Assembly: GCA_963921825.1 (NCBI GenBank)
Contig: OY997593.1
Location: forward strand, 60,620,039-60,684,038
Source of the DNA: Erodium maritimum
Lineage: Eukaryota; Streptophyta; Magnoliopsida; Geraniales; Geraniaceae
DNA length: 64,000 nt
Direction of reading: 5' to 3'
Each line of letters opens with the position of its first letter. The stretch's first letter is position 1. The notes under the pieces were generated by a model, which worked only from the letters and a program-made list of their open reading frames with translations, was not told the origin of the DNA and searched no databases. Below are positions 860-55,000 of this stretch, one piece after another. The position numbers and the translations under genes were made by a program.

Positions 860-1618
860 CTAAGCAGCCATTGATGGAATCATACCAGTTTTCCTGGCGA
901 AGGCGAAGATTCCACCAGCCTCGATCACAGGCCCTGCGTCCCCAATCGGCTTCAGTTTGTACTCTTTCCCCGTTGTGTGATTAATCAACAAGCTCTCTGC
1001 CAGCTCAATCGTCACCACATCACCGGTGCTACACTCTTCACAGATCCTCACCTCCGACTCCAACGGATACACCTCCCCAGTCGCCACCGAATTCCTGAAG
1101 AATATACGCGCGTACGACTCGGCCACCACCGCCGTCACGCCCGCCGCCCCGAGCGCCACCGGCGCGTGCTCGCGGGAGGAGCCGCACCCGAAGTTGTCCC
1201 CGCCGATTACGATGGAGTATTTGGATTTGCTGGCCCCGGGCTCAACGAATCGAGTGGTGTAGGATTCGGGGAGGCCAATGAGGGCGTAGGAACCGAGCTT
1301 CTCGTACTCGGCGGGATTGGAGGGTACCAGGGTGAGGTACTCGGCCGGGATGATCTGGTCGGTGTCGATGTTGTCGCCGATGACATAGCAGAGGCCGTGG
1401 AACGAGGTGACAGGAGATTCGGAAGAGGCGGCGGCGCGTGGGGCGACGGTCGGAGCCAAGTGGAGTTTGGTTTGGTATTTCAGGATCTTCGCCGGGGATG
1501 CTGGTAAGGAAGGGAACTTGAGAGAAAATGCGGAGGAAAGAGAGATCGCGCCACCTCGTGATGAGACAGCGAAGGTAGGGTTTACGGAGGTAGCCGACGA
1601 AGCCATGGAAGCCGCCAT
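860..1618 (-). CDS. 3-isopropylmalate dehydratase small subunit, chloroplastic
   Basis: Small subunit of isopropylmalate isomerase. With the LeuC-type large subunit it converts 2-isopropylmalate to 3-isopropylmalate in leucine synthesis; related plant paralogues also act in methionine-chain elongation for glucosinolates. It is an intronless frame of 252 residues. Residues 1 to about 60 are rich in Ser, Ala and basic residues and look like a plastid transit peptide. The aconitase swivel domain follows, with GDNIDTDQIIPAEYL at 81-95 and GDNFGCGSSREHAP at about 140-153, both hallmarks of LeuD/IPMI small subunits. The first ATG at 1618 lies in a good context, and a second in-frame Met is at residue 5. 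The gene is divergent from the ribosomal-type promoter to its right. A 39-bp remnant of its 5' end recurs at 4801-4839. The family call is very secure; which paralogue it is (SSU1, 2 or 3) is not resolved. Confidence 0.96.
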   Translation of the reverse strand: MAASMASSATSVNPTFAVSSRGGAISLSSAFSLKFPSLPASPAKILKYQTKLHLAPTVAPRAAASSESPVTSFHGLCYVIGDNIDTDQIIPAEYLTLVPSNPAEYEKLGSYALIGLPESYTTRFVEPGASKSKYSIVIGGDNFGCGSSREHAPVALGAAGVTAVVAESYARIFFRNSVATGEVYPLESEVRICEECSTGDVVTIELAESLLINHTTGKEYKLKPIGDAGPVIEAGGIFAFARKTGMIPSMAA

Positions 1619-2305
1619 GGCTTATTGGTTTGGGAAATGGTTGAAGAAGAGCGTAGCGGCTCGCATGAGAACGACAAAGCGAAAGCGAAATTGGTTTCTT
1701 TGCGAAGAAACTGGGCCGCAATCACGCGAAGTACTTAAGATGGGCCCGATGGTGTTGATGTGAGGTCAGCGCAGCCAGGCCCAGGCCTAATTTCTTTCGG
1801 GTCACGACATTGGGTTATATGATCTTGGGCTGTAATGCTGCATACGACGTCGCATAAAGCTACACTTCCAGATTCAAGCTCTGATTACATCTCCCCACAT
1901 TTACAAGGAAGATAATTCACCAAATCCCAACTCCTTGTTAGCGAAAACCCTAGCTCGAGTCAGGTCTTCACTGAACTAATCGGTACTGTCTCTTTCTCTC
2001 TCTGTGTTAAGCTGTGGCCATTTTCGGGTTTGTAGTAGCTGAGCGTGATTTTTACGTTGTTTTACCTATCAATCTATTGGATTTGCAATTATGTGTTTGG
2101 CTGCCGAGAAATTTTTGGAAACATATCTGTTGGTCTATGTTACTTTTCGGAAATGAAAGAGCATACATTAGTTTGTTGCCAAGAACATATGCACATTTGC
2201 ATATGATTTGATAAAACTGTTCTGATTCGACTTTTCTCCCACAGAAACTTTCTTCGTTATCATTTTATTTGACTTACAAGTAATCTGAATTCAATGTTTT
2301 AATAT
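1580..2305 (+). repeat. Direct duplication, left copy (IPMI 5' end, promoter, RPL15 exon 1 and intron 1)
   Basis: This block matches 4801-5539 almost base for base apart from small indels. It covers the first codons of IPMI, the shared promoter, the RPL15 5' UTR, the four-base RPL15 coding exon 1 and most of RPL15 intron 1. Similarity stops within intron 1, just after a shared TTTTAATAT, before the RPL15 splice acceptor. In this copy the IPMI gene is intact, but the RPL15 start codon is altered (ATC at 1979-1981). The splice donor GTACTG at 1983 is kept. Confidence 0.9.
1619..1982. promoter_or_regulatory. Bidirectional promoter, ribosomal-protein type (left copy)
   Basis: This segment lies between the IPMI start codon and the 5' exon upstream of rps12. 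It contains several TGGGCC/TGGGCT (site II) motifs in either orientation near 1709, 1741, 1775 and 1825, and a telo-box AAACCCTA at 1945-1952. Site II elements plus a telo-box are the known signature of plant cytosolic ribosomal-protein promoters. The same block precedes RPL15 (telo-box at 5214-5221), so this copy is an RPL15-type promoter now facing rps12. Transcription start sites are inferred, not seen. Confidence 0.75.
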
Positions 2306-2313
2306 TCTCGCAG
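1983..2313 (+). other. 5'-UTR intron of rps12, derived from RPL15 intron 1
   Basis: The donor GTACTG at 1983 is identical to the RPL15 intron 1 donor at 5263. The likely acceptor TCTCGCAG ends at 2313, eight bases past the point where similarity to the RPL15 copy ends (2305), so it came with the unique sequence on the right. Splicing here joins the RPL15-type 5' UTR to an rps12 leader exon at 2314-2375. This is inferred from splice signals and needs cDNA. Confidence 0.65.
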
Positions 2314-2375
2314 AGAGCTAGTTACTCATCGAAGCGCAACCGATTCGTTCCTTCATATTCTCGTTGATCTAAGAG

Positions 2376-2458
2376 GTGAATGCTGATTTCAGCACATATT
2401 TCATTTTCGTTGTTGCAATTTTTTCATAATTTATATATATTTTTGCTTGATTTCTCAG
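2376..2458 (+). other. Probable second 5'-UTR intron of rps12
   Basis: An AT-rich 83-bp segment bounded by AAGAG|GTGAAT and TTTCTCAG|AAAATCC, close to the usual minimum size of plant introns. Removing it makes the ATG at 2467 the first AUG of the mRNA. If it stayed in, an ATG at 2379 in the same frame would add about 29 hydrophobic residues, which look less like a mitochondrial presequence. Confidence 0.55.
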
Positions 2459-2466
2459 AAAATCCA

Positions 2467-3273
2467 ATGGCTCTTTCGAGGATCGCAGTTCGGAAGGATG
2501 CTTCCATGCCCAGCTCTTGCTTCCGGTTACTCGCCAGTCGTTGGTCCTCCAGTCTTGTCAAGGCGAGCTCATCAGCCGACCCCTTGCCTTCTTTCTCTCT
2601 TCTCGCTCTCTCGCCCGAGAATCTGAATCAGAGTCTTCCCAATGCTCGCCGTAGTCTCCTGGATTCGATCCACACCAACTGGACTCAAATCAGCACAATA
2701 CCATACACGGGTCTCGCAGAAACCATGTCTCACACCCACCCATCTTCCAAATTCGTGTTGGATTCCGATCAAAGTCGCCTAGAAGCTATCAGGAAACAAA
2801 TGGGGATATCGAATCTCGACAGAGTCGCAAATGCCTGCCAGGTGTTTGATGAAATGATGCCACGAGCTGAAAATGGTGCTGATGGACTGTATTGTATGCC
2901 TACATTCAATCAATTGATCTCCCATACGAGGAGGGAAAAAAAGCGTAGCAGCCGTACCCGTGCCCTGGAAGGATGCCCTCAGAAGGCAGGAGTGTGTGTT
3001 CGAGTGTTCACGCGAGCTCCGAAGAAGCCCAATTCAGCTCAGAGGAAGCTGGCCAAGGTGAGATTGAGCAATGGGAAGGACACATTTGCGTACATTCCTG
3101 GGCAAGGTCATAACTTGCAGGAACATTCGATTGTTCTGATAAGAGGTGGCCGAGTTCCTGATCTGCCCGGTGTGAAGTTTCATTGCATTCGAGGGGTCAA
3201 GGATTTGATGGGACTTCCCAACAGGAGACAAGGTAGATCCAAGTATGGTGCCGAGAAACCAAAAACTGGGTGA
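2467..3273 (+). CDS. rps12: Mitochondrial ribosomal protein S12, nuclear copy with N-terminal presequence
   Basis: Component of the small subunit of the mitochondrial ribosome (uS12 family, decoding centre). The frame encodes 268 residues. Residues 144-268 (from ATG at 2896) are a full S12 domain, with [20 protein letters not shown], then [31 protein letters not shown] and a basic C-terminus [10 protein letters not shown]. It is closer to plant mitochondrial than plastid S12. Residues 1-143 are extra; the start ([20 protein letters not shown]) is rich in Arg and Ser and poor in acids, as in mitochondrial presequences. Residues about 100-130 contain [12 protein letters not shown], faintly like a PPR repeat, which may be chance. 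The start at 2467 is chosen because two leader introns remove all earlier AUGs. Positions I recall as edited Ser codons in mitochondrial rps12 are Leu (DLPG) and Phe (VKFH) here. Confidence 0.93.
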
Positions 3274-4800
3274 GTGGATCGAGCTCGAGTTCCTTGAGTA
3301 TATAAATCTAGGAAGACTTGTCCTTGTTTTGAAGAAATAAGCTCATGGTATGGCTTAAGATTTATGTATTGGTGGTTTTTTTATAGTTGTTCTGATCATT
3401 ATCAATTTGATTCAGCTTCAGATTTTGTATTTGGGTTTTATCAGTAACTGTTATTAAGATGATGCAGTGACTGTTTCTTTTCAATTTATCTCAAGACTGA
3501 TGTTGCTTTTATCCCTTTGTGAGTCTCATGAAGACAGTCTGATTAATGATAGTGAAATGAATACTCAACTGGGTTCAGCTTTGGAATATTGCTCTTTGGT
3601 TTACAACTACCTAACTGTTTTTGAGACAGTATAGTCATAAAAAAAAACTATTTGATAATGAAAAGTGACAAATCTCCCCATTTTTCAAAAAGGGTTCGGT
3701 GAATTTGGATACAAATTCTCATTCTCTGGCTTGAGTTGTATTTGACAAGAAAAAAGACTATTGTTTACACTGAGTTCGGATAAAAATTCATGCCTAGATT
3801 TTTTAGACGTTTCCGAAACTAAATTTACAGACCTAAATTTGCTGCTTATATGTATAATTAGTTAAATATGAAATTAAGAACTTGTGAAATTCCAGTTGCA
3901 ATGATCCCAGAAAAAACATAGGCTTGAATATCAGGATTGACATGTTGGAATCAAGAGTGTTGGCCAAACTAGAACGTAGAACCATACTGTTTAGCAATTC
4001 AATTGAAGTAACTCCTCATTGTAATGTGCACATCTTTGTGTTGAAATTGAGGAAAATATGGAAACCAGATTAGGGTTTTGCAAAAGTTTCTCTCATCTTT
4101 GTCTCTCTGGGTTTGTTTTTATATTAAGAGTATAATTTTGCCTCCTATTACCCATCATTTATTCAAAAATGTTAGAGAATCATATATAATAGATGTCTGA
4201 CACAATCATCTTGATAAGACAATTACCTCCTTTCACTCCAAAAGAGTTAATTTTAATTTCAAACTCTTATAATACTTTTCAGCAACCAGATTCAAACTAT
4301 TGTAAATTGTACTTGAGAAGTCATATGTAAAATAACATGGTTAAATTATACTTCGGTTATGTATATATATACAAAAAGAATAGTATCTCCTATATTTCAT
4401 CTACCATATGAATGATTTAGGTATTAAAATATTTGTATTCAATTTAATATATTTATAATAAAAATATTTATTGCTTGTTTCAAAATTTGTTTATCAGTTT
4501 CGATAGGAGAAGAGAATAATTATATTTGAAATAAAGAATGTATAGAGATAGTCTAATACATAGAATTAAATAAAAACAAATTTTATTTTTTTTAACAAAA
4601 AATATAATTTTATTAATATTATGAAGAGCTCTTACATGTAAAAAAAATATATTTTATTTTTATATCAATTATACATACAAATTATTGAACAAAAAAAAAT
4701 ATAATCCAACTACCTGAAGAGTTAATTTTTATTTTAAATTTTAATATATTTAACAATTATAGACAAAACACTCTACGAAATATTTTTAATTTAACCATTG
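3274..4800. other. rps12 3' flank and AT-rich intergenic DNA
   Basis: The first few hundred bases should hold the rps12 3' UTR and poly(A) site. From about 3620 onward the DNA is very AT-rich with runs of A and T and no coding signal. Two similar AGAGTTAATTTT-containing segments near 4243 and 4720 hint at a degraded repeat, but I could not define ends or target-site duplications. Confidence 0.5.
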
Positions 4801-4839
4801 GTTTACGGAGATAGCCGACCAAGCCATGGAAGCCGCCAT
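4801..4839 (-). pseudogene. Remnant of the IPMI small-subunit 5' end
   Basis: Thirteen codons starting at ATG 4839 (minus strand) match the first codons of the intact IPMI gene at 1618, with Ser-to-Trp and Thr-to-Ile changes, and then run into unrelated AT-rich DNA. It shows that the duplicated block was cut out of an IPMI-promoter-RPL15 arrangement. It cannot make a functional protein. Confidence 0.85.
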
Positions 4840-5258
4840 GGCTGATTGGTTTGCGTAATGGTTGAAGAATGGTTTGCGTAATGGTTGAAGAAGAGCGTAG
4901 CGGCTCGAATGAGCCCGACAAAGCGAAATCGGCTTCTTTGTGAATAAACTGGGCCGCAATCACGTGAAGTACTTAAGATGGGCCCGATGGTGTTGATGTG
5001 AGGTCAGCGCAGTCAGGCCCAGCCCTAATTTCTTTCAGGTCACGACATTGGGTTATATGATCTTGGGCTGTAATACTCCCAACTCGCATACGACGTCGCA
5101 TAAAGCTACACTTCCTATCGAGGAGTAAAGAACGGTCCAGATTCAAGCTCTCACTACATCTCCCCACATTTATAAGGAAGATAATTTACCAAATCCCAAC
5201 TCCTTGTTAGCGAAAACCCTAGCTCGAGTCTGCGGAGGGGCAGGTCTTCCCTGAACTA

Positions 5259-6751
<1,493 letters not shown>

Positions 6752-7200: not shown

Positions 7201-10189
7201 TTAGTTATTTTCGTCCATGACTTCCTCTATAGTTACAAACCTTCCCTTCTCTATAGATAGTTGACCTGCAACTCCAATGGCAACAGAAACCAATCCGTCC
7301 TCCAAGTTGACAGCAGGTCCTTGAGCACCTTCAGTTCTGATGGCAGACAAGAAGTTGAGGTGCTCCAAATAGCTAGAGCCATGATGCAACCCATCATACC
7401 TGAATATCATTTTGATTCTTTCAAAAATCTCATCGCATGAGGGAGCATATGTTCACCATTGAAGATAATAGAAGAAAAAAAGATAAGTAACTCACTTTAT
7501 TCGGCCATCTGTGGCCTTTAAAGTTTGTACACCTTCTCTCCCCGCCACTCGAGTACCAGTGCGCACAATACTCTCCGGAACAAAGGCCTCTCCCTGTTAT
7601 AAACCATAGGTACAGCCAAAATGAGAGGTAAAACATGTCCACACATTATGCAGTAACACTTACACAAATGAAACCAGTCATTGTTTGCATACTAATGACC
7701 TAGATTTCCAGTGGAATGTATAGGATGCATCCACAAGTTTGCCAATATGTGCGAATGCACCTTAACTTGCAGATGGTGTAGAAAGTTACCTTTCCTGTGT
7801 CCCCAACAACAGATATTTCTTGCTCATTTTTGCTCCCTTCAGCAAACATGCAGAGATCAAGCATTCCTCTAGAACCATTATCAAACTCAACAATAACATA
7901 TGCATTGTCGATTATATCAGGCACCTACAACAACTCAGACGGTGAATAAGCAATATGCCGATCATAACCCAAAATAACATCTGCGGTTCTGTTCATTTTT
8001 GCTCCTCTTTTTTTTTTACTGGGTTTAATGATATGATGGTGTGGTCTCCTATGATTGACACATTACACCAGTTCCTTTTTATTTCCTTCTTGGGTATATG
8101 TAGTCTAAGCATCAAAGTTAAAAAAAATGGACTTCAAAAATCCACCTTTCCATCATATATTTCATCTTTGTGGTTAACATCAACAGCTCCGGAAGCCATC
8201 ACCCGAACAGGATTTGCGCCAGCAAATAGCTTCATCAGATCAAAAAAGTGACAGCACTTCTCTACCAAAGTCCCCCCTGAGTTAGCATTGAATCGATTCC
8301 AGTTGTTGACCTATTACAATTAGAGGGTTGATAAGATCACTGGCTACAATGAGTAATTAGGAATGTTCAGTTTACTTGTATAAACTAACCTTAACCAAGA
8401 AAGGGAACCTATGTTCTCTGATTGCCACCATCTTGATTTGTCCAAGAGTTCCACGCTTGACTACTTCTATTAATTTAGCAACTGGTGGCATGTACCTGTA
8501 CTCCAATCCAACTTGTACCAGTATCTCTGGCCTCTTTTTAGCAGCATTTACAACCTATACCAAGGATTCTCAGAGGAAGACTGGATCTAAAAATTAGGCC
8601 AAAGAATGTGAAAGCGCAATATACATAAAAATGAAGCACAAATTCAACGCAAAGTGATGGCATAACTCAATTCTATTTTGATGATGATATTGATAACTTT
8701 CTAACACATCTACTAAAGTGGGTGGATGAGCCCTCAAACATCCAGTCATTATATATGGTTTTGGGATGAAGAGAATCACTTTTTTCTTGACATTCTTGCA
8801 ATTTTCTCACTGTCCTGGATCTTGTCTTTTTATCACGCATGTTCCTCAAATAAATAAATACACTCCATTAAGTTAATTATGAAAAAAATGACTAGGAATG
8901 AAACCCATTATTTCTGCCAATCTATTAGCTTCCTGCTAGTAAGAAAATAATCAAATATTAAAATGCAACACAACAGAGAGGCTTTTGCTCGCACACCCTA
9001 TGCACATTGAGGAGACTATTTACAAGATATATGTTGTAGATAGGAAAAGTTACTCAAGTAGCATTAAACAACACACCTTTTTGCAGTCAACCACTGTTGT
9101 GCATAATGGTTTCTCTACCAATACATGATGAGGCTTAGGGTGGTCGATGATATCCATAAGTATTTGAAAATGGGTCATGTTCGGACTTGAGACGACCACG
9201 ACATCACAGTGACCACTATCAAGTAGCTCCTGGTGTCCTGAAAACACCTATAAATATGTTTTAAAGTGATAACCATGCATACTTTACGCCGATTATCTAA
9301 TTGGTCAAAATTATATGACTAGAGTAACACTCTTTTCAACTTAGGAACTAGAAGTTTAAGCAGTACCACAAGACCTTTCTAGCATGAATTTACATGAGTT
9401 GCAGAATAACAAATAGCAGTGTTAGCAAGCCACTTCCAATTTAAAATTGTTTTTCTGACTTCCATGAAAAACACAGCATACTACTTGCGATACAAGAAAC
9501 TACGTCATCAATGAAGGAAGGCAGGTTACTAATTAAGAAGATAGACCAACTTTCAAACCCAAATATTCGGGTTAAAAGGCTTAAAGCTAACCTGAGCTAC
9601 TCCAAAAAAATTCAATTCCATTTCAAAGCCTATCGTGTCTCTCAAACTCGAAACTTCTAAGAGAATCATGTAACCTTGACACCAATTTCACAAATAGAAA
9701 CTCTACATCATGGCCAATACAGCATCAGAAGAAGCACACTAAATAATAATCATCATCATCATCATGTAACTATTGAATCCATAAAATTCCTAAATTCACA
9801 TTCTGTCATGATTGTTCATCAAAGCCAAGTTGAAGAGCTAATATATGAAATTCAAGATAAACTACAACACAATTTAATCAAATTTGACCCTGCTTAGACA
9901 AATATAGAAATCAAACATCAATATCAGCTGAAGTAGCCAACCACGAGTTGACTGAGTAAGCAATGCTCCGATGAATTAAATTTGAGGACGAAGAACCCAT
10001 AACCCGTACCTTAAGATGCCAGCCAAAAGACTCTGCTAATTTTAGGGCAGCCTGCTGAGAAGGAACATGAGGATCGGCTATGCACACGACAGCAACGCCT
10101 TCGCCGCGAAGATGATGCAGATTTATGAGGTGCTCTCTTCCCATCATCCCCACCCCTACGATTCCGTACTTCACAGTATCAGAAGCCAT
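7201..10189 (-). CDS. GFO/IDH/MocA-family NAD(P)-dependent oxidoreductase, 7 exons
   Basis: Predicted Rossmann-fold dehydrogenase of the glucose-fructose oxidoreductase / inositol dehydrogenase family; the substrate is unknown. Exons in order of transcription: 10189-10010, 9247-9077, 8554-8390, 8310-8146, 7924-7790, 7593-7496 and 7399-7201. All junctions are GT..AG and in frame, giving 1113 nt and 370 residues. The N-terminus has the dinucleotide-binding loop GVGMMG (12-17) and ends its first fold with the conserved EKP (105-107), whose Lys is the usual catalytic residue. [24 protein letters not shown] matches the conserved C-terminal-domain segment with a His that normally contacts substrate. 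No targeting peptide is obvious. It most resembles, from memory, Arabidopsis At4g17370. It shares a 262-bp intergenic region with the divergent PSD gene. Confidence 0.92.
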
Positions 10190-39277: not shown

Positions 39278-41635
39278 TCATAACCCATCACCCACATTCA
39301 AGAACTCAAATGCATCAATGCAACTGACTTGGCAAAACAGATGGCGCATCCCATCGACCCATTTCTGCTTGTGGGACTTGTTCTGGCACTTGAACTCCAT
39401 CAGACCTTGCCCCGTTTTCAGGCCGAAATAAACCTCTTCCGAGCTCTCCCTCTCTCTTAGATACGGCCAAGCCGCACTCTCGTCACATATCCCATAAACA
39501 AGACCTGCAAAACCATACAAGTTTAGTTACACAAAAACAGTAACACCCAAATACGCTTTCTGCTTACATTTATTCTTCTTGCAGAATGCCCCTCCCGCCT
39601 TCTTGCTTTTCACCGTAACCATCACCTGTTGGTACAGTCATGTTAGTGACCTATGCAAATGATTTAGCCAATTAATCAATGTGTCATTGTTCTTTCTACC
39701 TGAGATCTTTTGTTGATGTATACTGATACAATCCTCCATTGCATCATTCCTGACAATCCAAACAACAAACAGTATTTACAGAGGAAATAAAGGATAATTG
39801 CATTCTTTTTCACCTAACTATCCTTGATTTTCACGTAGTTTTACCTAACTATCCCTGATTTTCATCTAACTACACCAAAGTCCAAACTATTAATTTCATC
39901 TCGGAGATACCCTACCTTTTCAAAAAAATCACTATACTACAAAAGAAAAAGGTAGTGATGCGAAAATGAGTATTGCGCAGGTCAACTTTTGGAAAGTTAA
40001 GGTACTGTCTATACATATTTGTATTGGGTATAGCTAACTACGTGAAAAACCGGTTTAGTTATGTGTAGATCAGTGTAGTTAATCCTACATTTATTTCCAG
40101 TAAAATAATATTAATTTTTTAACCAAAACAAAAAATAATATTATTTACGGAGAAATAATATTTATTTATTTACTTATAATGACATTTATTTCTAAATTTG
40201 TCATTTTAGAACAATTTGACACGAAATGCGACAAATTAAAAGTTCTAGACCACAATCTGCAACGATTAAAAGACCACCAATATCGTTAAAAAAAAGACCA
40301 CCAATAGTCTAGTACATTTTTGTCATCATCCCAAACAAGAACATGGATTAAGATGAATCTAAGCAAAAGTAACTATACCTTTTTGTGTGAGTTGCAGTAG
40401 CTCTCCAACCACAGGATAGACACACCTATCATAAGGACTTATCGTTGCATTCTTCTTCGGTTCTTTAGGAAATCTTGCCTTCAATGCTGATTCTCCTCGC
40501 AAAGCTTATGAGATCGTAAAATCAGATACAGTTGGTGTAAGTATGAGATCGTAAATTGAAGGAGTAGTACCTGTTGCAGCTGCAGCAGTGAGGGTCAATA
40601 GATCACCGGGCGTTTGAACATCTACCGCTGATCTGATGACTGAGTCAAGACGAGCATGATCAACTCCCGATGAATCAGCCAATTCAAGGCAATGTGAAGC
40701 CAATAGTTGAGCAGCTGAGGCCAAAGCCAAGTCCATCTTGGAGCCTGACCCATTGGCTTTCTGTGCACTGGCTAAAGCTGCTGCTAGTCCCGCTATGGAC
40801 ACGGTCGTGTGCACATGCGCATTCTCTACGCGCACCTTGTCTTTCCTCTTCACTGTACTATCACTTGAATCCTTGTGGAACCATTTCCCCAATCTCCTAC
40901 TACTTACTGGTACAATAGGCCTCCCTCTCCCTGCCTCCTAAACAAGGCCAAACCAAATCTCTGAATCTATGCTCACTACTTCAACCACAATCCACACTCA
41001 ACTGAAAACAATAACAAAATACAGGGTTGATTGCTGATCCATTATGTGCCTTTTGCACATAACAAATCTCAATTTCAAAACTTCATATACAGTACCTTGA
41101 TCATGTCTAAAAATACAACTTTTTTGAGAGATTTATCTTTTAAGATGTCTTTTTAGATCTAATCAATTGTTATTTGCATCTATCGTCCAAAGTGTTTTAT
41201 TATATAGTTACGAGGTATTTTTTTTTCCGATTAGGGTCAAGGGCATTTTCGTCATTTTCAGACAAATAAGAGCTACCTGCAATTTCTCGAAAATTAGGAA
41301 TATAGATGTAAAAATTCAAAATTGGAAATAATGATATGCAAAAGATGTAATTAATCCCAAACTAGATACAATAAGGATCTAAGTTTGAGTACCTGTGGGT
41401 GTGGTATTGAAACTGGGATTGCATCTGTGTTTCTGTCTCCTACAAATTGCTGCTCTTTATTGGAAAGGGCTTTGGTGATATCTGAAGCTGAAAGGGTCCA
41501 AGACCTTGCTAAGAACTCCATGGGTTCTCTGGGTGTTCTAATCTGAGAGATTGCTGGCATGGACTGATCCTTTTCTTCATCCACATTTTCAAGCCACTGA
41601 AGAGAATCAACACTCTTCCAATACCCATTTTCCAT
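39278..41635 (-). CDS. VAN3-binding / FORKED-like protein (DUF828 plus PH-like domain), 6 exons
   Basis: Member of the plant family that binds the ARF-GAP VAN3 and acts in auxin-guided vein patterning and vesicle traffic. Exons in transcript order: 41635-41393, 40937-40571, 40495-40379, 39749-39700, 39625-39568 and 39504-39278; 1062 nt, 353 residues. Recognisable parts are EPMEFLARSWTLSASDITKAL (DUF828 start), then the Ala-rich HTTVSIAGLAAALAS...LDLALASAAQLLASHCLE-type helix block, SPYDRCVYPVVGELLQLTQKG, and a PH-like C-terminus with WRIVSVYINKRSQ, AWPYLRERESSEEVYFGLK and KQKWVDGM. It is somewhat short for the family. Resembles At4g17350. Introns 1 and 3 contain MITE-like inverted repeats. 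Confidence 0.9.
39792..40089 (+). mobile_element. MITE-like inverted repeat in the VAN3-binding-like gene (intron 3)
   Basis: Left end GGATAATTGCATTCTTTTTCACCTAAC...TTTTCACGTAGTT is roughly mirrored by AACTACGTGAAAAAC...GTGTAGTTAATCC on the right. Arms are imperfect. It is related in style to the other TAATTA-ended elements here. No clear target-site duplication. Confidence 0.5.
41027..41354 (+). mobile_element. MITE in the VAN3-binding-like gene (intron 1)
   Basis: Starts TTGATTGCTGATCC...TTTTGCACATAAC and ends ATATGCAAAAGATGTAATTAA, an imperfect inverted pair. The inner GGGTCAAGGGCATTTTCGTC block matches the element in PurU intron 5, so both belong to one family. Confidence 0.65.
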
Positions 41636-42997: not shown

Positions 42998-44701
42998 TGT
43001 TAGTCTTAGTGCCCGTAGTTCAATCCTAAATGTCCAAATGTATATATCATCGTTAGCAATAAAATTAAAGCGGCTTTATATTACTTATGTGTTGGAGTAA
43101 TATATCGATGTGTGCTCTGATCTATGCCCACCATGCGAATAGAACCATAGATCGAGATAGATCACACTCGATGGGTCCCTAGTCAACAAAGCTTCACTAG
43201 AAGCGACTAGTATGAAAGATGGCTCTTTATGGCTTACGTTCTGTTAGTCATTGGAATGGGATTCCGGAGTCTGATCATAGATATCATGTGGGACATGATA
43301 TTGGACGACCCGCCCTGAATATGTGCCATAGATTAAGTCATGAACATATTCAGTGTTGTAGCTTGTCATGTATCCTTAGACCAAGGAGTCTTTGTGATCG
43401 CTATGTAGTCAACAACTGAGTTTGACCTGAGCCTAACGTTGTCCGTAACAGGGCTTCCATAACGGCCAGGATTGGCTTGGGGACGGGCTACATGAGTGAC
43501 ACGAAAGACGGCTAAGGGATTTATCCCTCATACTAAGGTATGGGAAAGATATCGGTTCTCGGCCACTTGATCGAGAGTGACTGGAAGAATAGCATGGCCA
43601 TGCACATGATACTGGGTATCATATCTTCAGTCATCTCACATATCAAGGAACGGTGATTGAGAATAATAAGGATGACGGCTCTATGCCTTATCTCAATCAG
43701 GATATCGGAGATAAAAGGATAATGACAGGGACGACGGAAAGGTTAGAATCGACAGGGTCGATTCGTTATGTAGTGTCAGGCAATACTAAAGTCTCGTTAG
43801 TTTCCACTTAAATAGGATCAAGTAAAATGGGATTTTACGTTGATCTATTGACATGCATAAACCTAAGGGTCACACCGGAGGATGAAACTCATTGACACAT
43901 TTATGGAGAATGGCCAAAAGGGAGTTGTCTCGGGACATGACCAAAACTGGGTTTTGGGTCATGTGCCCGTAAGTGAATAGGACTTCACAGATCGAGACAA
44001 GGCTTGGAGTCTTGGGATTGATCGCGTCGGATAATGTTGGACATTTCCGGTATGGAAGGCATGGAGGCGATGAGCGAATCACGGGACCTCGTTGAAAATG
44101 GCCACGGGCCATGTTCCAAGAGGCCCATGAAAGGCCCATGCAACCAAGGCCCATGCAACCAAGGCCCATGGAACTAATTAATCAAGTCTTGATTAATTAG
44201 TACTAAGTAAGCAAGACAAGGATTAAGGTGTTGGTGATTCACCACCTAACCCAATCTTGTCTTGCCATACTTTGTCCTATTTACACCTTACTTGACACCA
44301 TACTTGTCCCATGCCTTTAGTTGGACAAGTATGGGTTTTGTTATGTTTAAGTCATCTTTTTTTCAACATAACAAACACAAGACAAGAATAGGAAACACAT
44401 TTTCTCTCCCTCTTCCATGGCCATTTCGGGTTTGGCTAGTTTCCACCTCCATGTTTGTGTTCTTGAGTCCTCAAAGAGAAGAACTACGTGGCTTTGATTC
44501 CCATGTGGATACGTAGGCGTCTTGGAGACTCAAGCCAATCATTCGTTAACCGGTGTTCTTGTTTTGGTAAGAACTAGTGCTGAATTTTTCTCTTGTTAAT
44601 CCATTCTTTGTTAGTTGTTTCACGGTTTTAATTGTCTCTTGGTTTTCATTGATTTTCCGCTGCGAGTTGGTTCATCTCTAACCCTACCTAGAGACCCAAC
44701 A
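42998..44701 (+). repeat. 5' LTR of the copia element
   Basis: Starts TGTTAGTCTTAG and ends GAGACCCAACA. It differs from the 3' LTR by an extra 15-bp unit (AAGGCCCATGCAACC repeated near 44140-44160) and at least two substitutions (near 44096 and 44679). It contains four consecutive stem-loops at 44173-44375. The open frames within (for example 43219-43419) are identical in both LTRs and are not genes of known function. Confidence 0.95.
44173..44375 (+). repeat. Four consecutive stem-loops in the LTR
   Basis: H1: ACTAATTAATCAAG 44173-44186 with 44188-44201, perfect 14 bp and a one-base centre. H2: imperfect 27-base arms 44211-44237 and 44239-44265. H3: CCATACTTGTCC 44298-44309 with 44323-44334, perfect 12 bp. 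H4: TTTGTTATGTT 44337-44347 with 44365-44375, perfect 11 bp. The same array occurs in the 3' LTR, shifted by 6777 bases (50950-51152). Confidence 0.85.
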
Positions 44702-44702
44702 G

Positions 44703-44714
44703 TGGTATCAGAGC
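44703..44714 (+). other. Primer binding site (initiator tRNA-Met type)
   Basis: TGGTATCAGAGC, one base after the 5' LTR, complementary to the 3' end of plant initiator tRNA-Met, the usual primer of copia elements. Confidence 0.93.
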
Positions 44715-46260
44715 CGTGCTACCTTCGGGATTCACAAGACGGTGTTCAAAGTTTCGGTTTTGCTTGAAAGTTTCGTTTTTGGCATGTTGTTTTGCTAAAT
44801 TGTTTGATAACATGTTTTAAATTATTGTTTATGGATTTAATGCATGTAAAATGAATTTTTGAAAATTATTTCAAATCTGGAAATTTTGAAAAAAAAATTT
44901 GATTTTTCGGGTCTCGGGAGCGGGACTCTCGGGGAGCCGAAACCGGGACCGAACGGGGCTCCGTTGGACGGAGCTAGGCCAAGCATGACCATTGGATGGT
45001 TGATATGCCAAGGCTAAACCGTTTTGTTAGTTATGACGAGTTTGGAACCGTCATGACGAACTCGAAGATCAAATGTTCAAAAGTTTCATTTTTGAACGGT
45101 TTCGATAAACCGAGCATCAAAAAAATTTCGAAACTTGGCTATTAATTAAAACCGAAAAATCACATGATGTTTGATAACATGCTTGTTTGATAACACGATG
45201 TGTGATGTGATGTTGACATGGTGTACATAATAGCCCCGAGCTCAATTTAATTATTTATCGCTTTTCACGGCCTGCGAGCCGTTAGAGTTAACGTGTAATT
45301 ATTCTTTCAAGGTGTGGTCGTCGAACCACTTGTTTGTAATATTTATTTATTCCCGACCTGCGAGTCGTGTATTAAATTGTAATATTTTACTCAAGACGAA
45401 GAAAGGGCGAAAAGGTCATTTGGTGGCTTTTCGGGTGTTGGCATCGGCTTGGAGTCGGTGGAGCTCAAGAAGCTAGTGGGAGTTAGTTTAGGGGGCTATT
45501 ATGTGCACATTTATCGCTTTATGCTTGGTTTAGTTTATGCATGATTAATTCTATGTGTTTTAGAATTGCATGCTTAACTTTATTTACCGAGCATATCACC
45601 TCACATGCAAAGATAAAATTGGACTTTTAATCCTTGTGTGTGAACCCTTAGAATCGTCATTGCATTGGATGTAGTTGACGGGTTCAAAGGAAGAATTATA
45701 TTGGATGTAATTTGAGGCATCATTGCATTTGGAATGTAGTTGATGTGCTCATCGCATCTAGGATGTGCCAAAGTTTTGAACACAACTGGACAAGTAAAAG
45801 CGGGTCATGTCCGATACCTCCCAATCATCAACACCTTACTACCTCCCTGTCCTATGGTTGTCGTGCGCATTAGCGGAGCATCCATGGGGAAGCGGGGTAG
45901 TAGGTTTGGACGACATATGTGGGTGTCGTGCGCATTAGCGGAGCACCTACATAGTGACGAGCCATAGTTGAAAATTGGTGGACCCGACTACGATTCTCGG
46001 CCTGAGGTTGAGCTAGGGTAACAGATAGGGTAAGTCGTGTACATAAGTACATACCCTAGCCAAGAGTCACATTGGATGTGATTGGATGGAGTCCTACCTA
46101 CATAGCTCGATTAAGTGGTGAGCATTAGTTCAGCTTAATCGAGTGAATCAAGGATCTTGGTTTCAGATTCTAAAGGTTTAGAATTGATTGTTGGTGTTTA
46201 AGCTTGATCTTCATAAAATTTATTCAGTTTACTGATTGAATTTTATCTGTTGTAGATCAA
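44715..46260 (+). other. Copia untranslated leader
   Basis: About 1.5 kb without coding potential between the primer site and gag. It includes short direct repeats (GTCGTGCGCATTAGCGGAGCA at 45860 and 45925, and TGGATGTA-rich words). It would hold dimerisation and packaging signals if any are functional. Confidence 0.6.
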
Positions 46261-49200
46261 ATGGCAAATTCAGCGAACATTAATAGTTTGTCATTAAAAA
46301 CCATTCTTGACAGGGTCAAGCTAAATGGGACAAACTATTTGGACTGGTACAGAATTTTGAGGATAGTCCTCAAGTCTGAACGCAAAGAATATGTCCTTGA
46401 CAAGGCTGTCTCTAAGACCATATCAGAGTTACATGAAGTGTCATCAGCTGCTGAGAAGAATATCTCAGGGATCTGGGATCCAAGGATATTCTGATGGTCA
46501 ACAAGGGAATTGGAAGTGGCAAGGGCTGGGCCCATGCGCACTTGGCAGGAAAGATGAGACACCTGAGAATGTCTGCTTCTACTGCCAACAGCCTGGTCAT
46601 TGGAACCGGGATTACAGGAAGTTCACGGCTGATCTGAAGAAGGGCAGTGGGACTGCGCCTTCATTAAATAGCCTGGATGATCTGAAGAAGGGCAGTAGGA
46701 CTACGCCTTCATCAGGAAACCTGGATGATCTAAGGAAGGGCGGTGGGATCGTGCCTTCATTCGGTATTAACTCTATAGAGCTACATCTCTCTACTTCCAA
46801 AGATTCATGGGTATTAGATACCATGACTGAATCTCATACATGCACTAATATATGGTGGCTGAAAGTAGGAGAGATTTGGAAAGCACGAAATGGACCTCAG
46901 AGTTGTGGCAACTGCTGTAGGATCCATGAGTCTTGCTTTGCCAAGAGGCCTTGTCTTAGTATTGTATAATGTATATTGCATACCTACTTTTAGTAGGAAT
47001 ATTATATCTGTATCCGTGTTTGACAAGGAAGGATATAATGTTAATATTGGAAATGGAGTTTTCAATGTTCTATGCAATGATATGTTTTATACCAGTACTG
47101 ACATGGTTGGAGGATTGTACATATTAGATATGGGTAACAATTCCTCAAGTTCTATATATTCCGTTAATACCAAGAGGTCTAAATCCAACGATTTAAACCT
47201 AACTCTGTTATGGTACTGTCATTTGGGTCGCATAAACAAGAAGCGCCTATCAGCACTTCAGAAGTGCGGGCTTTCAGGTTCATTCGAATTCCATTCGATC
47301 GATAGGTGCAAGGTTTGTTTGATGGGAAAAATGACTAAAGTGCCCTTTATCGATCGCGATGAAAGGGCGGGTGAATTATTGGGGCTGATACACTCGAATG
47401 TGTGTAGACCAATAAGTTCACTTGCCAGGAGGGGTTTTAGCTACTTTATCACATTTACTGATGATTACAGTAAATATGGTTATGTCTATTCGGTGAGACA
47501 TAAGTCTGAAGCTTTTGATAAATTCAAAGAGTTTAAGACTATAGTAGAAAACCAGCTCGACAAAGGTATTAAGGCACTTCGATTGGATCGAGGTGGAAAA
47601 TACTTGACCACAGAGTTATTAGATCATCTAAAAGAGAATGGGATCCTTTTGGAATGGACTCCTCCTAGGTCACTGTAGTTGAAAGGTGTAGCCAAACGGA
47701 GAAATCGGACATTGTTAGACAATGGTCTGTTCCATGATTAGTTGGACTGATCTCCCAATCTCTTTTAGGGGTTTTGCTCTAGAGACGACCGCATTCATAG
47801 TGAATCGGGCTTCGACGAATGGTGTGGAAGGGACACCATTTTAAAAATGGTACGGGATGATGCCCGCTTTGTCCTTCCTAAAGATTTGTGGTTGCGAGGC
47901 TTATGTGAAACATTTGGTTTCGACTAAGCTCGAACCAAGATCTAAGATATGCACCTTCGTGTGGTATCCCAAAGCAACAAGGGGATACTATTTCTACAAT
48001 CCCAGTGAGAACATGGTGTTCGTCGCTTGGGGTGGGGTATTTATGGAAAAGAAGTTTTGTTTCCAAAGACGTCATTGGGAGGACTGTGCATCTCGAAGAA
48101 ATTCAGGATGGTACAGATCTGTCTAAACCAATTGACAACCCAGTAGAAAGGAGCCAGAGATTGTCGTAGAGTAAGAACCAATTCCTGTTACAATTCTGGA
48201 AGGTCCAAGGCGATTTGAAAGGATCAATCTTCCACCTCCAAGATATGGTATCCGGAGGTGACACTGAAGTCATGGTGGATCACGATGATCCAGCCACCTT
48301 TCAGGAAGTCGTGGATGGGCCCAACTCCGAGTTATGGCTGGGAGCCATGAGGGAGGAAATGCAATCCATGTCGGAAAACCGAGTCTGGGAACCGGTTGAT
48401 CCCATCAATGGTGTGAGGACCATAGGATGCAAATGGATCTTCAAGGTGAAGATGGACATGGATGGCAACCCTCTGACTTACAAAGCTCAACTGGTGGCGA
48501 AAGGTTATAGGCAGATCCAATGGATTGACTATGAGGAAACCTTCTCCTTAGTGGCTATGGTCAAAATCGATCCAAATTCTTCTTGACATAACTGCGTATC
48601 ATAATTACGAGATATGGCAAGTGGATGTCAAAACCGCTTTCCTAAATGGAAATTTGACTGAGTACGTTTGTATGTCTCGGCCCAAAGGTTTTGACGATCC
48701 GAAGAATAAAGGAAAGATTTATAAGTTGTTGAAATCCATTTCTGGATTGAAACGAACTTCTCGGAGTTGGATCCTTCGTTTTGATGAAGCTGTAATTGGA
48801 TTTGGCTTAATCAAGAACGAGGATGAATCTTGCGTTTATAAGAAGGCTAGTGGGAGCAATATTACATTTCTGGTTCTCATTGAAAACGACATCCCAACCT
48901 TGCACGAGATTAAAGCTTGGTTGAGGAAGTGTTTTTCAATAAAGGACTTAGGTGATGTTTCTCATATCTTAAGGATTAAGATATGTAGAGATCTCACCAA
49001 GAGGGTCTTGGATTTAAGTCAGGGAACCTATGTGAACAAGGCATTGAGTAGGTTCTTAATGCTCGATTCAAAGAAAGGACTCTTACCCACTAGTCATGTC
49101 ATTCATCTCAGCAAGACTCAGTTTCCTAAGACACCTGATGAGCTGAAAAGGATGATGAGAATCCTATGCGCCTGGGGGCAGGATCGATCATATATGCCAT

Positions 49201-49720
49201 GACATGTATGAGACCAGACGTCTCGTAAGCCTTATGTTGTACCAGTAGACATCATTCTAACCCGGGGGAAAGATGATGCTGAACTAGTCGTCGAAGGATG
49301 AGTAGACGCTAGTTTTCCAAGACAAATCCAGATGACTTTAGAAGTCAATCAGGATATGTGTTTACGCTGAATGGCAGAGCTTTAGCTGGGAAAGCGTAAA
49401 GCAAGATACCATTGCCGAATCTACGACAGAGGCCAAGTACATGGATGCTGCAGAGGCAGCTAAGGAGGCTATGTGGATTTGGAAATTCATGGCAGGGCTG
49501 GGTGTAATTAAAAACCCATCCAGTCCGGTGAATTCATTTTGCGACAACACAAGGGCCATTGCGCAAGCTAAAAGCCTAGATCGCATAACAAATCCAAACA
49601 TGTACTGCGGCGTATCCACCTCATAAGATAAATACTGAACTGAGGTGAAGTGAAGATAACCGATATTGCAACAGATGATAACATAGCCAACCCTTTGACT
49701 AAGGCAGTGTCACTGCCTGA
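46261..49720 (+). pseudogene. Copia gag-pol remnant
   Basis: Gag begins ATG 46261 (ILDRVKLNGTNYLDWYRILR) but loses its middle; a zinc knuckle CFYCQQPGHWNRDYRKF follows at about 46575. Three 16-residue repeats (DLKKGS.T.PS) follow at 46633-46770. The protease site reads Asp-Thr-Met at about 46820, where the family has Asp-Thr-Gly. Integrase (46890-47880) has its first catalytic Asp as Asn (LIHSNV) and the catalytic Glu as Lys (GVAKRRNRT). RT motif DVKTAFLNG is at 48627, but the YVDD motif is missing around 48880 (FLVL runs straight into IENDIPTL). RNase H remnants (EAAKEAMWIWKF) lie at about 49460. Frame changes and stops occur throughout. Confidence 0.9.
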
Positions 49721-49778
49721 ACATGTTAGACATGTAAAGTCGATGGGGACATATTGGAGTTTAGATTGGAACTAGGGC

Positions 49779-49788
49779 AAGTGGGAGA
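49779..49788 (+). other. Polypurine tract
   Basis: AAGTGGGAGA, one base before the 3' LTR, the usual plus-strand primer of plant copia elements. Confidence 0.9.
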
Positions 49789-49789
49789 T

Positions 49790-51478
49790 TGTTAGTCTTA
49801 GTGCCCGTAGTTCAATCCTAAATGTCCAAATGTATATATCATCGTTAGCAATAAAATTAAAGCGGCTTTATATTACTTATGTGTTGGAGTAATATATCGA
49901 TGTGTGCTCTGATCTATGCCCACCATGCGAATAGAACCATAGATCGAGATAGATCACACTCGATGGGTCCCTAGTCAACAAAGCTTCACTAGAAGCGACT
50001 AGTATGAAAGATGGCTCTTTATGGCTTACGTTCTGTTAGTCATTGGAATGGGATTCCGGAGTCTGATCATAGATATCATGTGGGACATGATATTGGACGA
50101 CCCGCCCTGAATATGTGCCATAGATTAAGTCATGAACATATTCAGTGTTGTAGCTTGTCATGTATCCTTAGACCAAGGAGTCTTTGTGATCGCTATGTAG
50201 TCAACAACTGAGTTTGACCTGAGCCTAACGTTGTCCGTAACAGGGCTTCCATAACGGCCAGGATTGGCTTGGGGACGGGCTACATGAGTGACACGAAAGA
50301 CGGCTAAGGGATTTATCCCTCATACTAAGGTATGGGAAAGATATCGGTTCTCGGCCACTTGATCGAGAGTGACTGGAAGAATAGCATGGCCATGCACATG
50401 ATACTGGGTATCATATCTTCAGTCATCTCACATATCAAGGAACGGTGATTGAGAATAATAAGGATGACGGCTCTATGCCTTATCTCAATCAGGATATCGG
50501 AGATAAAAGGATAATGACAGGGACGACGGAAAGGTTAGAATCGACAGGGTCGATTCGTTATGTAGTGTCAGGCAATACTAAAGTCTCGTTAGTTTCCACT
50601 TAAATAGGATCAAGTAAAATGGGATTTTACGTTGATCTATTGACATGCATAAACCTAAGGGTCACACCGGAGGATGAAACTCATTGACACATTTATGGAG
50701 AATGGCCAAAAGGGAGTTGTCTCGGGACATGACCAAAACTGGGTTTTGGGTCATGTGCCCGTAAGTGAATAGGACTTCACAGATCGAGACAAGGCTTGGA
50801 GTCTTGGGATTGATCGCGTCGGATAATGTTGGACATTTCCGGTATGGAAGGCATGGAGGCGATGAGCGAATCACGGGACCTCGTTGGAAATGGCCACGGG
50901 CCATGTTCCAAGAGGCCCATGAAAGGCCCATGCAACCAAGGCCCATGGAACTAATTAATCAAGTCTTGATTAATTAGTACTAAGTAAGCAAGACAAGGAT
51001 TAAGGTGTTGGTGATTCACCACCTAACCCAATCTTGTCTTGCCATACTTTGTCCTATTTACACCTTACTTGACACCATACTTGTCCCATGCCTTTAGTTG
51101 GACAAGTATGGGTTTTGTTATGTTTAAGTCATCTTTTTTTCAACATAACAAACACAAGACAAGAATAGGAAACACATTTTCTCTCCCTCTTCCATGGCCA
51201 TTTCGGGTTTGGCTAGTTTCCACCTCCATGTTTGTGTTCTTGAGTCCTCAAAGAGAAGAACTACGTGGCTTTGATTCCCATGTGGATACGTAGGCGTCTT
51301 GGAGACTCAAGCCAATCATTCGTTAACCGGTGTTCTTGTTTTGGTAAGAACTAGTGCTGAATTTTTCTCTTGTTAATCCATTCTTTGTTAGTTGTTTCAC
51401 GGTTTTAATTGTCTCTTGGTTTTCATTGATTTTCCGCTGCGAGTTGGTTCATCTCCAACCCTACCTAGAGACCCAACA
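49790..51478 (+). repeat. 3' LTR of the copia element
   Basis: 1689 bp, matching the 5' LTR apart from one missing 15-bp unit and at least two substitutions. Followed by the right TSD GCCAC. Confidence 0.95.
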
Positions 51479-52088: not shown

Positions 52089-55000
52089 ATGAAGCCGAAT
52101 CTGCAGGTTCTCGCTTGGAACTGTCGGGGGATGAGTACATGATTGCATAAGCAGCAACTCAGGAAACTGATTAGTGCTCATCGACCCCATCTCTTGTTTC
52201 TTTCAGAATCGTTACTCGATACCCAGAACTGTGCCTTCCGGTCAAGATCGTTGGGCTTTCATGACCATATTTGTGTCCCCTATTTTAGGGGGTCGGGGAC
52301 CGTGGTAAGCCAAAGAGGTCTGGCCCTATTCTGGGTGTCGGGTGTAGGGGTGACATTCAGGGCCTCCTCCGACCGGTATATCGACGTGGAGGTCTCAGTT
52401 CCGGGACATGACGAACTAAGGTCAACAGGAATTTATGGGGAACCCCGGCGGGATAGAAGACACCGGACTTGGGAAATGATCTGAAGCCTTCATACCTCCA
52501 CAAGGCCCAACTGGATCCTTATAGGAGACTTCAATCGTATTCTGGATGCAGATGAAACTACGGGGGGATCATATCCTATTAGTCTTATGGACGACTTTGG
52601 CTCGTTGGTGCACGATCTCCACCTGGTAGACGTCCCAATGACTGGCCACCCGTATACATGGTTTAGGGGCCGCAGGCACTATGCACATATCCAATCTCGG
52701 CTAGATAAGGCACTGGTATCGAGTGCTCTTTTCTCTTCGCTGCCTGATCTGGACTTCCGCAATACAGGGGTGACAACTTCGAAACACTAGCCGATTCTTC
52801 TGTCCCTGGCCCGGCAAATGAGACACTGTGGTCCCCCGAAATTCCGTTTCCAGTCCCAATGGATTTGCGACCCATATAGTGGTCATCTCATTCAGTCTTC
52901 TTGGGATAAGCGGCCAGCGAGGCCTATTGGAGAGGTCATCAACACGGTGGGAAAATCCATCTTTGAGTGGGATCGAGGGCACTTTCGTCGTAATCTCAAC
53001 CATATAAAGTGGTGTCAGTGGCGGATCGCAAATCTGAATGTAAAGGATGGATAGGGCAGGAATACATCTGTGAGAGGCTATTCAAATTCAGTATGAACGG
53101 GTGTTGGGGGAACAGGAGGCGTTCTGGCGTCAGTGTGCGAAATAACATTGGCTAGCCGAGAGAGATCGAAATACAAAAAATTTCCAGGCAGCCTGTTCGT
53201 ATAGACGTCGTATCAATGTGGTTTTATCCCTGACGACGGAATAGGGGGACTTGGTCACATGGGACACGAGTATGAGAGAGCTGATTGTGGATTATTTCAG
53301 TACACTATTCACGACGAGCTTGCCGGACCTTCGAGATTTCCCCATAGCTCTGCCCCCAATGTATCACCCCGACGCAGAATCAAGTACTTTTATCCCCTTG
53401 CTCAGTGACAGAGGTCCGAAAGGCGGTGTTTTAGATGGGGCCTAATAAATCACCGGGTCCTGGTGGTCTTAATCCCCGGTTTTATAAGCATTATTGGCCG
53501 ATTGTAGCAGACGAAGTGGTCCGGTTTATAAGTGAGGTGCTGGCGTCGCGGAATTTTGACCCCATTCTGAATGAAACCTCCATTGTCTTAATACCGAAGA
53601 AGCCTGACCTGGACAAGATCACTGATCTTCGACCGATTGCCCTATGTAATGTGATTTTCAGAATCCTCTCTAAGGTCTTGGCTAACCGCCTACGACCCCT
53701 TCTCCACTTTGTCATCTCGGACACCCAAGGGGAATTTATCCCAGGCAGATGTATTCAAGACAACATCTGGATAGCATTTGAGGTCATCCATTTCCTCCGA
53801 CACAAGTGCCAAGGTGTGGTAGGCTATATGGCGCTCAAACTTGACATGAGCAAAGCGTATGATCGAGTCGAGTGAGATTACTTACTTCAGATTATGGCTC
53901 GGCTGGGTTTCTCAGAGGAGTGGATAACATTAGTGGCGTGTTGTGTGAAATCTGTCCACTACACTATATCGTCTGGGGGAAGGGAGACGCCACAACTAAC
54001 ACCGACACGAGGACTAAGGCAGGGCGATCCACTCTCACCCTACCTCTTTCTCCTCTGTATGGAAGGGCTCTCTTTTCTACTGCGTCAGGCTCAGACCGAG
54101 GGACGAATGCGGGGCGTTTGTGTCGCACGAGGAGCTCCGGAGATTTCGCATATGTTCTTCGTAGACGATTGTTATATCTTTTTTCGGGCAACCCCTGAGG
54201 ACGCTCAGACAGTCACATACATCCTAGGTCTGTTTGGGACCCTTTTGGGGTAGGTACTGAATCTGGAGAAGTCATCAGTTATGTTCAACAAGAACACCTC
54301 GCCGGCCATCAAACTACAATACTGTCAAATCCTAAATATAGTTGAAACCTCCGCGTCATCGATGTACTTGAGTGTCCCGAACATGGTCGGTAGGAATAGC
54401 AATGTCGCCATGGCATATCTGGGTCATAGGGCTGTTAAGCGTATCCAGTCATGGGACGGGAAACTTCTCTCGCCGGTAGGAAGGGAGGTAATGATTTGGT
54501 CAGTCCCGGCCTCTCTCCCCGTTTATGTCATGTCCGTATTCACCATACCTGCCAGGATTATTGCTCAGATCCACGTGGCGCTAGCTCGGTTTTGGTGGGG
54601 TGGGAAGATGGCGCGTCCGATTATCTGGAAGGACTAAGATAAGTTATGTATACCAAAGGAGGCTGGGGGTATGGCGTTCCGTCACTTGAACGACGTTAAT
54701 AAGGCACTCCTGGGTAAACAAGCCTGGAGTCTTATCTTTCGCTCTACTTTCCTGATGGCACGAGTGCTTAAGGCCTGTTATTTCGCGAAGGTTACATTTC
54801 TTGAGGCCGGAGCTGGTACGAACTCGAGTTTCATCTGGGCGAGTATTCTGTCAACCAATGAATTACTTAGGAGCGGCCTTCGGATAGCGATTGGGGATGA
54901 CAGAGATACCCTTGTCTTGGGTACACCGTGGCTGCTCGGGCCGAACCCGGAAGTTACTTCTTCAAACTCGGCGTTGGTTAGGGCTCGGGTTGCGGGGCTT

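Follow-up and report, generated by a model that had tools for sequence, protein, structure and literature searches.

Probable promoter replacement in a younger nuclear copy of rps12 beside RPL15 in Erodium maritimum

Introduction

How does a gene that left the mitochondrion come to stand behind the promoter of a cytosolic ribosomal-protein gene, and was that promoter the one that first gave it expression in the nucleus? The question is raised by a stretch of 64,000 nucleotides from Erodium maritimum (hereafter the window; C6:60620039-60684038 in a host assembly of 763 Mb in 40 contigs, C6 and the like being contigs), which is plant nuclear DNA and in which the gene for the small subunit of isopropylmalate isomerase (IPMI), rps12 and RPL15 are grouped at the left end. 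An earlier sequence-only reading had proposed that a local duplication of the promoter common to IPMI and RPL15 supplied rps12 with its first expression signals after it moved from the mitochondrion. The analysis reported here points to a probable promoter replacement in a younger duplicate of an rps12 that was already nuclear and already equipped, with the captured block predicted to drive expression of the copy on C6.

The duplicated promoter block

A block of ~0.73 kb is present twice in the window. The left copy (1579..2305, + strand) holds the first IPMI codons, the promoter, the RPL15 exon-1 leader and most of intron 1 and runs on from IPMI, with the right copy (4800..5539, + strand) lying upstream of RPL15, carrying a truncated IPMI start and running into RPL15 exon 2. 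Compared by blastn, the two copies form a single 801-column alignment (E=0.0), in which 621 columns are identities, 45 are mismatches and 135 are gaps, the ungapped parts (repeats D1-D8) being 84-100% identical. Over the whole block there are 56 differences at 666 sites, and over the promoter part 19/336 in one alignment and 22/336 in another. Since many substitutions and seven indels separate the copies, they are not one sequence assembled twice. No further match to the block was found within the window by blastn, and a DNA search of the whole genome returned two places only, a diverged relative on C1 having escaped at that sensitivity.

The IPMI gene (860..1618, - strand, 252 amino acids in the list of open reading frames) was recognized by its aconitase C-terminal domain (Pfam Aconitase_C, E 5e-18) and by a paralogue on C1 that is 88% identical. 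It is divergently oriented from rps12, with the left promoter copy common to both genes, and the IPMI fragment in the right copy meets a stop shortly past the repeat border. RPL15 is intact (exons 5259-5262, 5558-5724, 6194-6391 and 6506-6751, + strand), its spliced translation being free of internal stops. To this extent the sequence-only reading was borne out, in that the block is duplicated where it had been said to be, the left copy leads in the correct orientation into an intact rps12 and the right copy into RPL15, the donor gene was kept whole and the source of the promoter lies next door. A 23-bp tandem duplication at 4847-4892 is found in the right promoter copy only and not in the left.

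Origin of the inserted rps12

The window rps12 (2467..3273, + strand, 268 amino acids; Pfam Ribosom_S12_S23, E 8e-35) consists of a 143-amino-acid N-terminal extension (2467-2895, + strand) followed by the uS12m body (2896-3270, + strand), for which the best PDB match is a plant uS12m (6xyw, E 2.6e-64, query 144-267). The gene is therefore of mitochondrial descent, sited on C6 beside nuclear IPMI and RPL15. In a search for the donor of the extension, Pfam gave nothing and the PDB nothing better than E 0.77.

When the genome was searched with rps12 as DNA, three places were found, namely the window, C1:148229369-148230182 (93%) and C7:1386555-1387356 (77%). Of the nine rows from the corresponding protein search, four belong to the three nuclear loci, C7 being hit twice, and the other five are weak, with 39-43% identity, and are presumably plastid-type rps12 pieces. 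The C1 open reading frame is intact at 268 amino acids and has the same 143-amino-acid extension, with the window protein being 90% identical to it; the C7 copy has decayed, with stops and frameshifts. The ratio of nonsynonymous to synonymous divergence (dN/dS) between the C6 and C1 genes is 0.275 over the whole open reading frame, with a higher value in the extension (0.473) and a lower one in the S12 body (0.131). Colinearity of the C1 and C7 loci is seen in a blastn comparison over ~37 and ~30 kb, in which six upstream and two downstream flanking rows out of 13 agree in order; of the others, one corresponds to the gene, two represent a second rps12 piece on C7 and two minus rows misfit. This second piece is partial and lies a few kb downstream of the main C7 copy.

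The segment at 2307..3789 (+ strand, 1.48 kb) was matched to the C1 locus by blastn at 91.3% identity. Because the leader intron is retained and homology to C1 extends 516 bp beyond the stop codon, the segment was evidently copied as DNA and not from messenger RNA, which speaks against an origin as a retrogene. These alignments mark the window rps12 as a later copy of the C1 gene. Neither the C1 nor the C7 gene has the RPL15 block ahead of it, and the two have ~70 bp of further upstream sequence in common, beyond the point at which window homology starts (2307). The C1 upstream region carries site II motifs at 9577, 9598 and 9614 and a telo-box at 9642, with the copied segment beginning at 9669. 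Three TGGGCY motifs in 250 bp were reached in 0/2000 shuffles of this region and the telo-box in 73/2000. Upstream of the C7 gene there are four site II motifs, and the motif scan of that region found no telo-box. The claim that the local duplication gave rps12 its first expression signals was thus not supported, since older nuclear loci with upstream motifs of their own and without the RPL15 block exist in the same genome; a nuclear rps12 lacking the duplication is the result that the sequence-only reading had itself named as refuting, and C1 and C7 provide it, which bears on the first-acquisition part of that reading and on no other.

The mitochondrial remnant

The nad3-rps12 pair is a conserved mitochondrial cluster (PMC6092842), and rps12 has seldom been lost from angiosperm mitochondrial genomes, being nuclear in Zostera (PMC5435185). 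The gene is listed for the mitochondrial genomes of Lonicera, Viburnum, Punica and Eucalyptus grandis and in a table for Ludwigia, and an Oenothera list has it only among plastid pseudogenes. A nad3 query matched contig C38 at 92%, and with Pfam finding nad3 and part of nad1 on this contig, C38 is taken as mitochondrial. At C38 594-657, GAEKPKSR followed by a stop begins 36 nucleotides past the nad3 stop and matches the end of plant uS12m (GAEKPKS). No larger rps12 piece was detected by blastn in the first 9.9 kb of C38, and none of the nine rows of the genome protein search was of mitochondrial type. The mitochondrial rps12 appears to have been deleted save for its last eight codons and the stop.

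Promoter motifs and the predicted leader

The motif scan of the left block copy located TGGGCY site II motifs at 1712, 1741 and 1826 (+ strand) and 1778 (- strand) and a telo-box at 1945 (+ strand), all within 1712..1951, and the right copy has a matching set of four TGGGCY and a telo-box at corresponding positions. In the left copy the four TGGGCY compare with 0.3 expected, a number reached in 1/2000 mononucleotide shuffles, and the single AAACCCT with 0.05 expected, reached in 90/2000. Such site II and telo-box elements are shared by mitochondrial and cytosolic ribosomal-protein genes (PMC3212954). As the C1 promoter motifs did not travel with the C6 copy, its promoter is most likely the captured block.

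The leader predicted for the C6 gene combines parts of both sources. Its first intron (1983..2313, + strand) would run from the old RPL15 donor, the GT at 1983, to an AG ending at 2313. As the sequence-only reading had it, the left copy retains the site II motifs, the telo-box and a donor, called working in that reading and here a predicted one, with the acceptor coming from the adjoining DNA, since this AG lies in the inserted old rps12 leader. The CTCGCAG and AGAGC around 2313 are also present in the C1 rps12 leader, indicating that old leader sequence was probably turned into a splice acceptor. A proposed second leader exon (2314..2375, + strand), defined by alignment with C1 and C7, is followed by a putative second leader intron of 83 nucleotides (2376..2458, + strand) whose GT/AG ends are common to C1 and C7 and which precedes the rps12 ATG at 2467. 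The former RPL15 start codon (1979..1981, + strand) now reads ATC and, with the right copy and the C1 homologue both having ATG in a three-way alignment, the change is clearly polarized as derived in the left copy. If both introns are removed and transcription starts near the telo-box, the predicted leader is free of ATG.

The uninterrupted site and timing of the copying

IPMI has one paralogue in the genome, at C1:155295851-155296597. There, at 155.29 Mb on C1, IPMI and RPL15 lie head to head on one promoter region with no rps12, and on this comparison the C1 pair displays the uninterrupted arrangement. Synonymous divergence (dS) between C6 and C1 is 0.45 for IPMI as against 0.16 for rps12, making the copying of rps12 younger than the paralogous IPMI-RPL15 pair.

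The noncoding divergence of the two block copies is 33/548 (promoter 22/336, intron 2094-2305 11/212), a count from which IPMI codons and the tail of exon 1 are excluded, as is the part of the intron (1983-2093) that aligns poorly. That of the C6 and C1 rps12 genes is 45/649 (leader 15/143, 3′ flank 30/506), and the two do not differ (Fisher p 0.56). This equal divergence fits the block duplication and the rps12 copying having been one event.

The repeat and the mode of insertion

The stretch that separates the rps12 segment from the right block is an AT-rich repeat (3784..4799, no strand assigned), probably transposon-derived and recognized by its genome matches. Searching the genome with 3790-4799 gave at least 51 matches including itself, 40 of 110 candidates being scored, with similarity beginning at window position 3784 on C8 and C2 and later in other copies and the right ends reaching 4787. 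The repeat thus ends near both neighbouring junctions. Capture by a transposon, with the ends of one element and a short target duplication, was considered and found unsupported, as the repeat, whose ends are defined in part, lies on one side of rps12 only and the flanking duplication is 0.73 kb long. Helitron ends were sought by eye at the insert borders and not found, and when inverted-repeat seeds were examined in 11 stretches, taken from 11 repeat matches, no terminal repeat recurred consistently. A tandem duplication of the whole of RPL15 followed by exon replacement was rejected, as blastn within the window aligned no part of the insert (2306-4799) with RPL15 or with the sequence 3′ of it. 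The C1 locus is intact and the insert is composite, being made of the rps12 segment and the repeat. The combination of a composite insert with a long duplication on its flanks is reminiscent of break repair with filler DNA, and by this analogy the insertion may have come about in that way, although no direct trace of a break was seen.

The history that we propose would begin with the copying as DNA of ~1.48 kb of the C1 gene, from just downstream of its promoter motifs, with the AT-rich repeat either copied along with the rps12 segment or joined later. The insert would have entered C6 in the space between IPMI and RPL15, with a copy of the 0.73-kb block on either side, such that the left block keeps serving IPMI and now reads into rps12 and the right block keeps RPL15 whole. 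Transcripts would start near the telo-box and be spliced from the old RPL15 exon-1 donor (1982/1983) to the AG of the old rps12 leader (2313/2314), the leader intron at 2376-2458 would then be removed, and translation would proceed from 2467, with the product presumably imported into the mitochondrion. Loss of the RPL15 ATG would have removed an upstream start.

Alternative explanations

Several points weigh against this history. Use of the captured promoter and the 1982/2314 splice are predicted from the DNA, and in the left copy another AG, ending at 2244 and having a pyrimidine tract, could compete with that at 2313; its use would place a short upstream open reading frame in the leader. The loss of the RPL15 ATG is by itself weak evidence, being one substitution within a block of 6-7% divergence. 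Polarization of the block changes by the C1 homologue (17 left, 28 right) is rough, as the C1 promoter region aligns poorly with the block. The branch test of rps12, which counts in favour of this history, has limits, in that the outgroup was the C7 pseudogene, 15/54 differences were unassigned and the counts are small with nominal p values. It gave 11 synonymous and 13 nonsynonymous changes on the window branch (p 0.014 against the neutral expectation) and nine and six on the C1 branch (p 0.003), suggesting constraint on each of the two copies from the time of their separation. Finally, fourfold sites of rps12 differ between C6 and C1 at 17/121, exceeding both the block (33/548, p 0.006) and the gene's own 3′ flank (30/506, p 0.006), such that the rps12 copying could predate the block duplication. 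The excess over the gene's own flank suggests faster change at such sites rather than greater age.

That rps12, on its arrival from the mitochondrion, received its first nuclear expression signals through the local duplication would be in keeping with the disappearance of the gene from the mitochondrial contig and with a promoter source that adjoins it. It is nevertheless highly improbable given the older, colinear C1 and C7 loci, which have their own upstream motifs and leader intron and no RPL15 block, and the 90% identity of the window protein to that of C1. Less easily dismissed, if still unlikely, is a C6 rps12 that is silent or runs on a cryptic promoter, with C1 as the working gene and the left block kept only as the promoter of IPMI. 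IPMI does need the left block, and the C1 gene is intact with promoter motifs of its own; such a silent copy sits poorly, however, with an intact open reading frame of 268 amino acids, with nonsynonymous change below the neutral level on the window branch and with the keeping of site II motifs, telo-box, donor and acceptor together with the loss of the upstream ATG.

The order of events allows more latitude. It is possible, though we do not favour it, that several steps were involved, the block being duplicated or the repeat inserted before rps12 entered at the junction, or rps12 and the repeat arriving as a composite. The composite nature of the insert and the excess of rps12 fourfold divergence over that of the block both speak for such a sequence; on the other side, the noncoding divergences are equal, and a later insertion would have had to strike the exact junction. 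We retain promoter replacement in a younger duplicate of the C1 gene as the probable history, presumably in a single event.

Other features of the window

Beyond these genes, direct repeats within 43000-51222 are 100% identical over the reported 300-nucleotide stretches at a spacing of ~6.8 kb and enclose Copia-type integrase and reverse transcriptase open reading frames (46869-49199), probably forming a young long terminal repeat element. A fragment of an RVT_1 reverse transcriptase at 53435-53872 is probably from a long interspersed nuclear element, and an exon with an Auxin_canalis domain lies at 40509-40937 (- strand, E 1.4e-34). An Rfam scan of the window gave no matches, and in viral contigs searched for relatives two stretches fit a pattern, neither encoding a relative.

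Comparison with known systems and significance

In rice, Ueda and colleagues reportedly described in 2006 promoter shuffling at the nuclear rpl27 gene for mitochondrial RPL27, and rps12 of Oenothera is said, from the work of Grohmann and colleagues in 1992, to be nuclear after its loss from the mitochondrion. The E. maritimum locus joins a known class, in which nuclear genes for mitochondrial proteins acquire promoters by shuffling, and its record within one genome is unusually complete. A literature search by titles and the beginnings of abstracts, with partial coverage, found no rps12 with an RPL15 promoter, which is weak evidence of absence.

The nearest cases are rice rpl27 and rpl6. In rice rpl27 a nuclear mitochondrial ribosomal-protein gene gained its promoter by recombination (PMC2631504), and the C6 rps12 resembles it in having a promoter from elsewhere; here, unlike in rice, the donor is an adjoining cytosolic ribosomal-protein gene that was duplicated in place and is intact, and an older copy has survived with a promoter of its own. 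Rice rpl6 received a 5′ untranslated region from a transposable element after gene duplication (PMC2631504). Both it and rps12 were duplicated as DNA with one copy acquiring a new 5′ region, but at the C6 locus this region is RPL15 promoter, exon and part of an intron, with the repeat sitting 3′ of rps12. The acquisition of telo-boxes by plant mitochondrial ribosomal-protein genes (PMC3212954) is similar in that the site II and telo-box elements are common to both gene classes; that study infers acquisition from motif enrichment, whereas here a copied cytosolic ribosomal-protein promoter is seen directly, on a gene previously equipped with motifs of this sort. The movement of genes through double-strand-break repair with filler DNA (Wicker et al., 2010, in the account of PMC3445842) is alike in that the gene copy is non-colinear, lies near a repeat and lacks obvious transposon ends, the difference being a flanking duplication that here is 0.73 kb long and promoter-bearing. 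As in Zostera, rps12 is nuclear following mitochondrial loss, the Zostera gene having two exons of 133 and 377 bp (PMC5435185).

How genes move out of organelles is usually pieced together, step by step, from comparisons among species, whereas most of the steps seem to be preserved here within a single genome: the nad3-side remnant, the older C1 locus with its own promoter motifs and a duplicate that has decayed, the IPMI-RPL15 site in its uninterrupted form and the newer rps12 placed behind the duplicated promoter of a cytosolic ribosomal-protein gene. The promoter of a transferred gene would on this evidence be replaceable long after the transfer, so that the promoter now in place may differ from that under which the gene first became active. 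More speculatively, and with considerable doubt on our part, the swap may have been selected for the direct link that it makes between one of two working uS12m genes and a cytosolic ribosomal-protein promoter, a literal co-regulation of mitochondrial and cytosolic ribosomes, with C1 (on its own promoter) and C6 (on that of RPL15) sharing the work. The case opens such co-regulation to a direct test.

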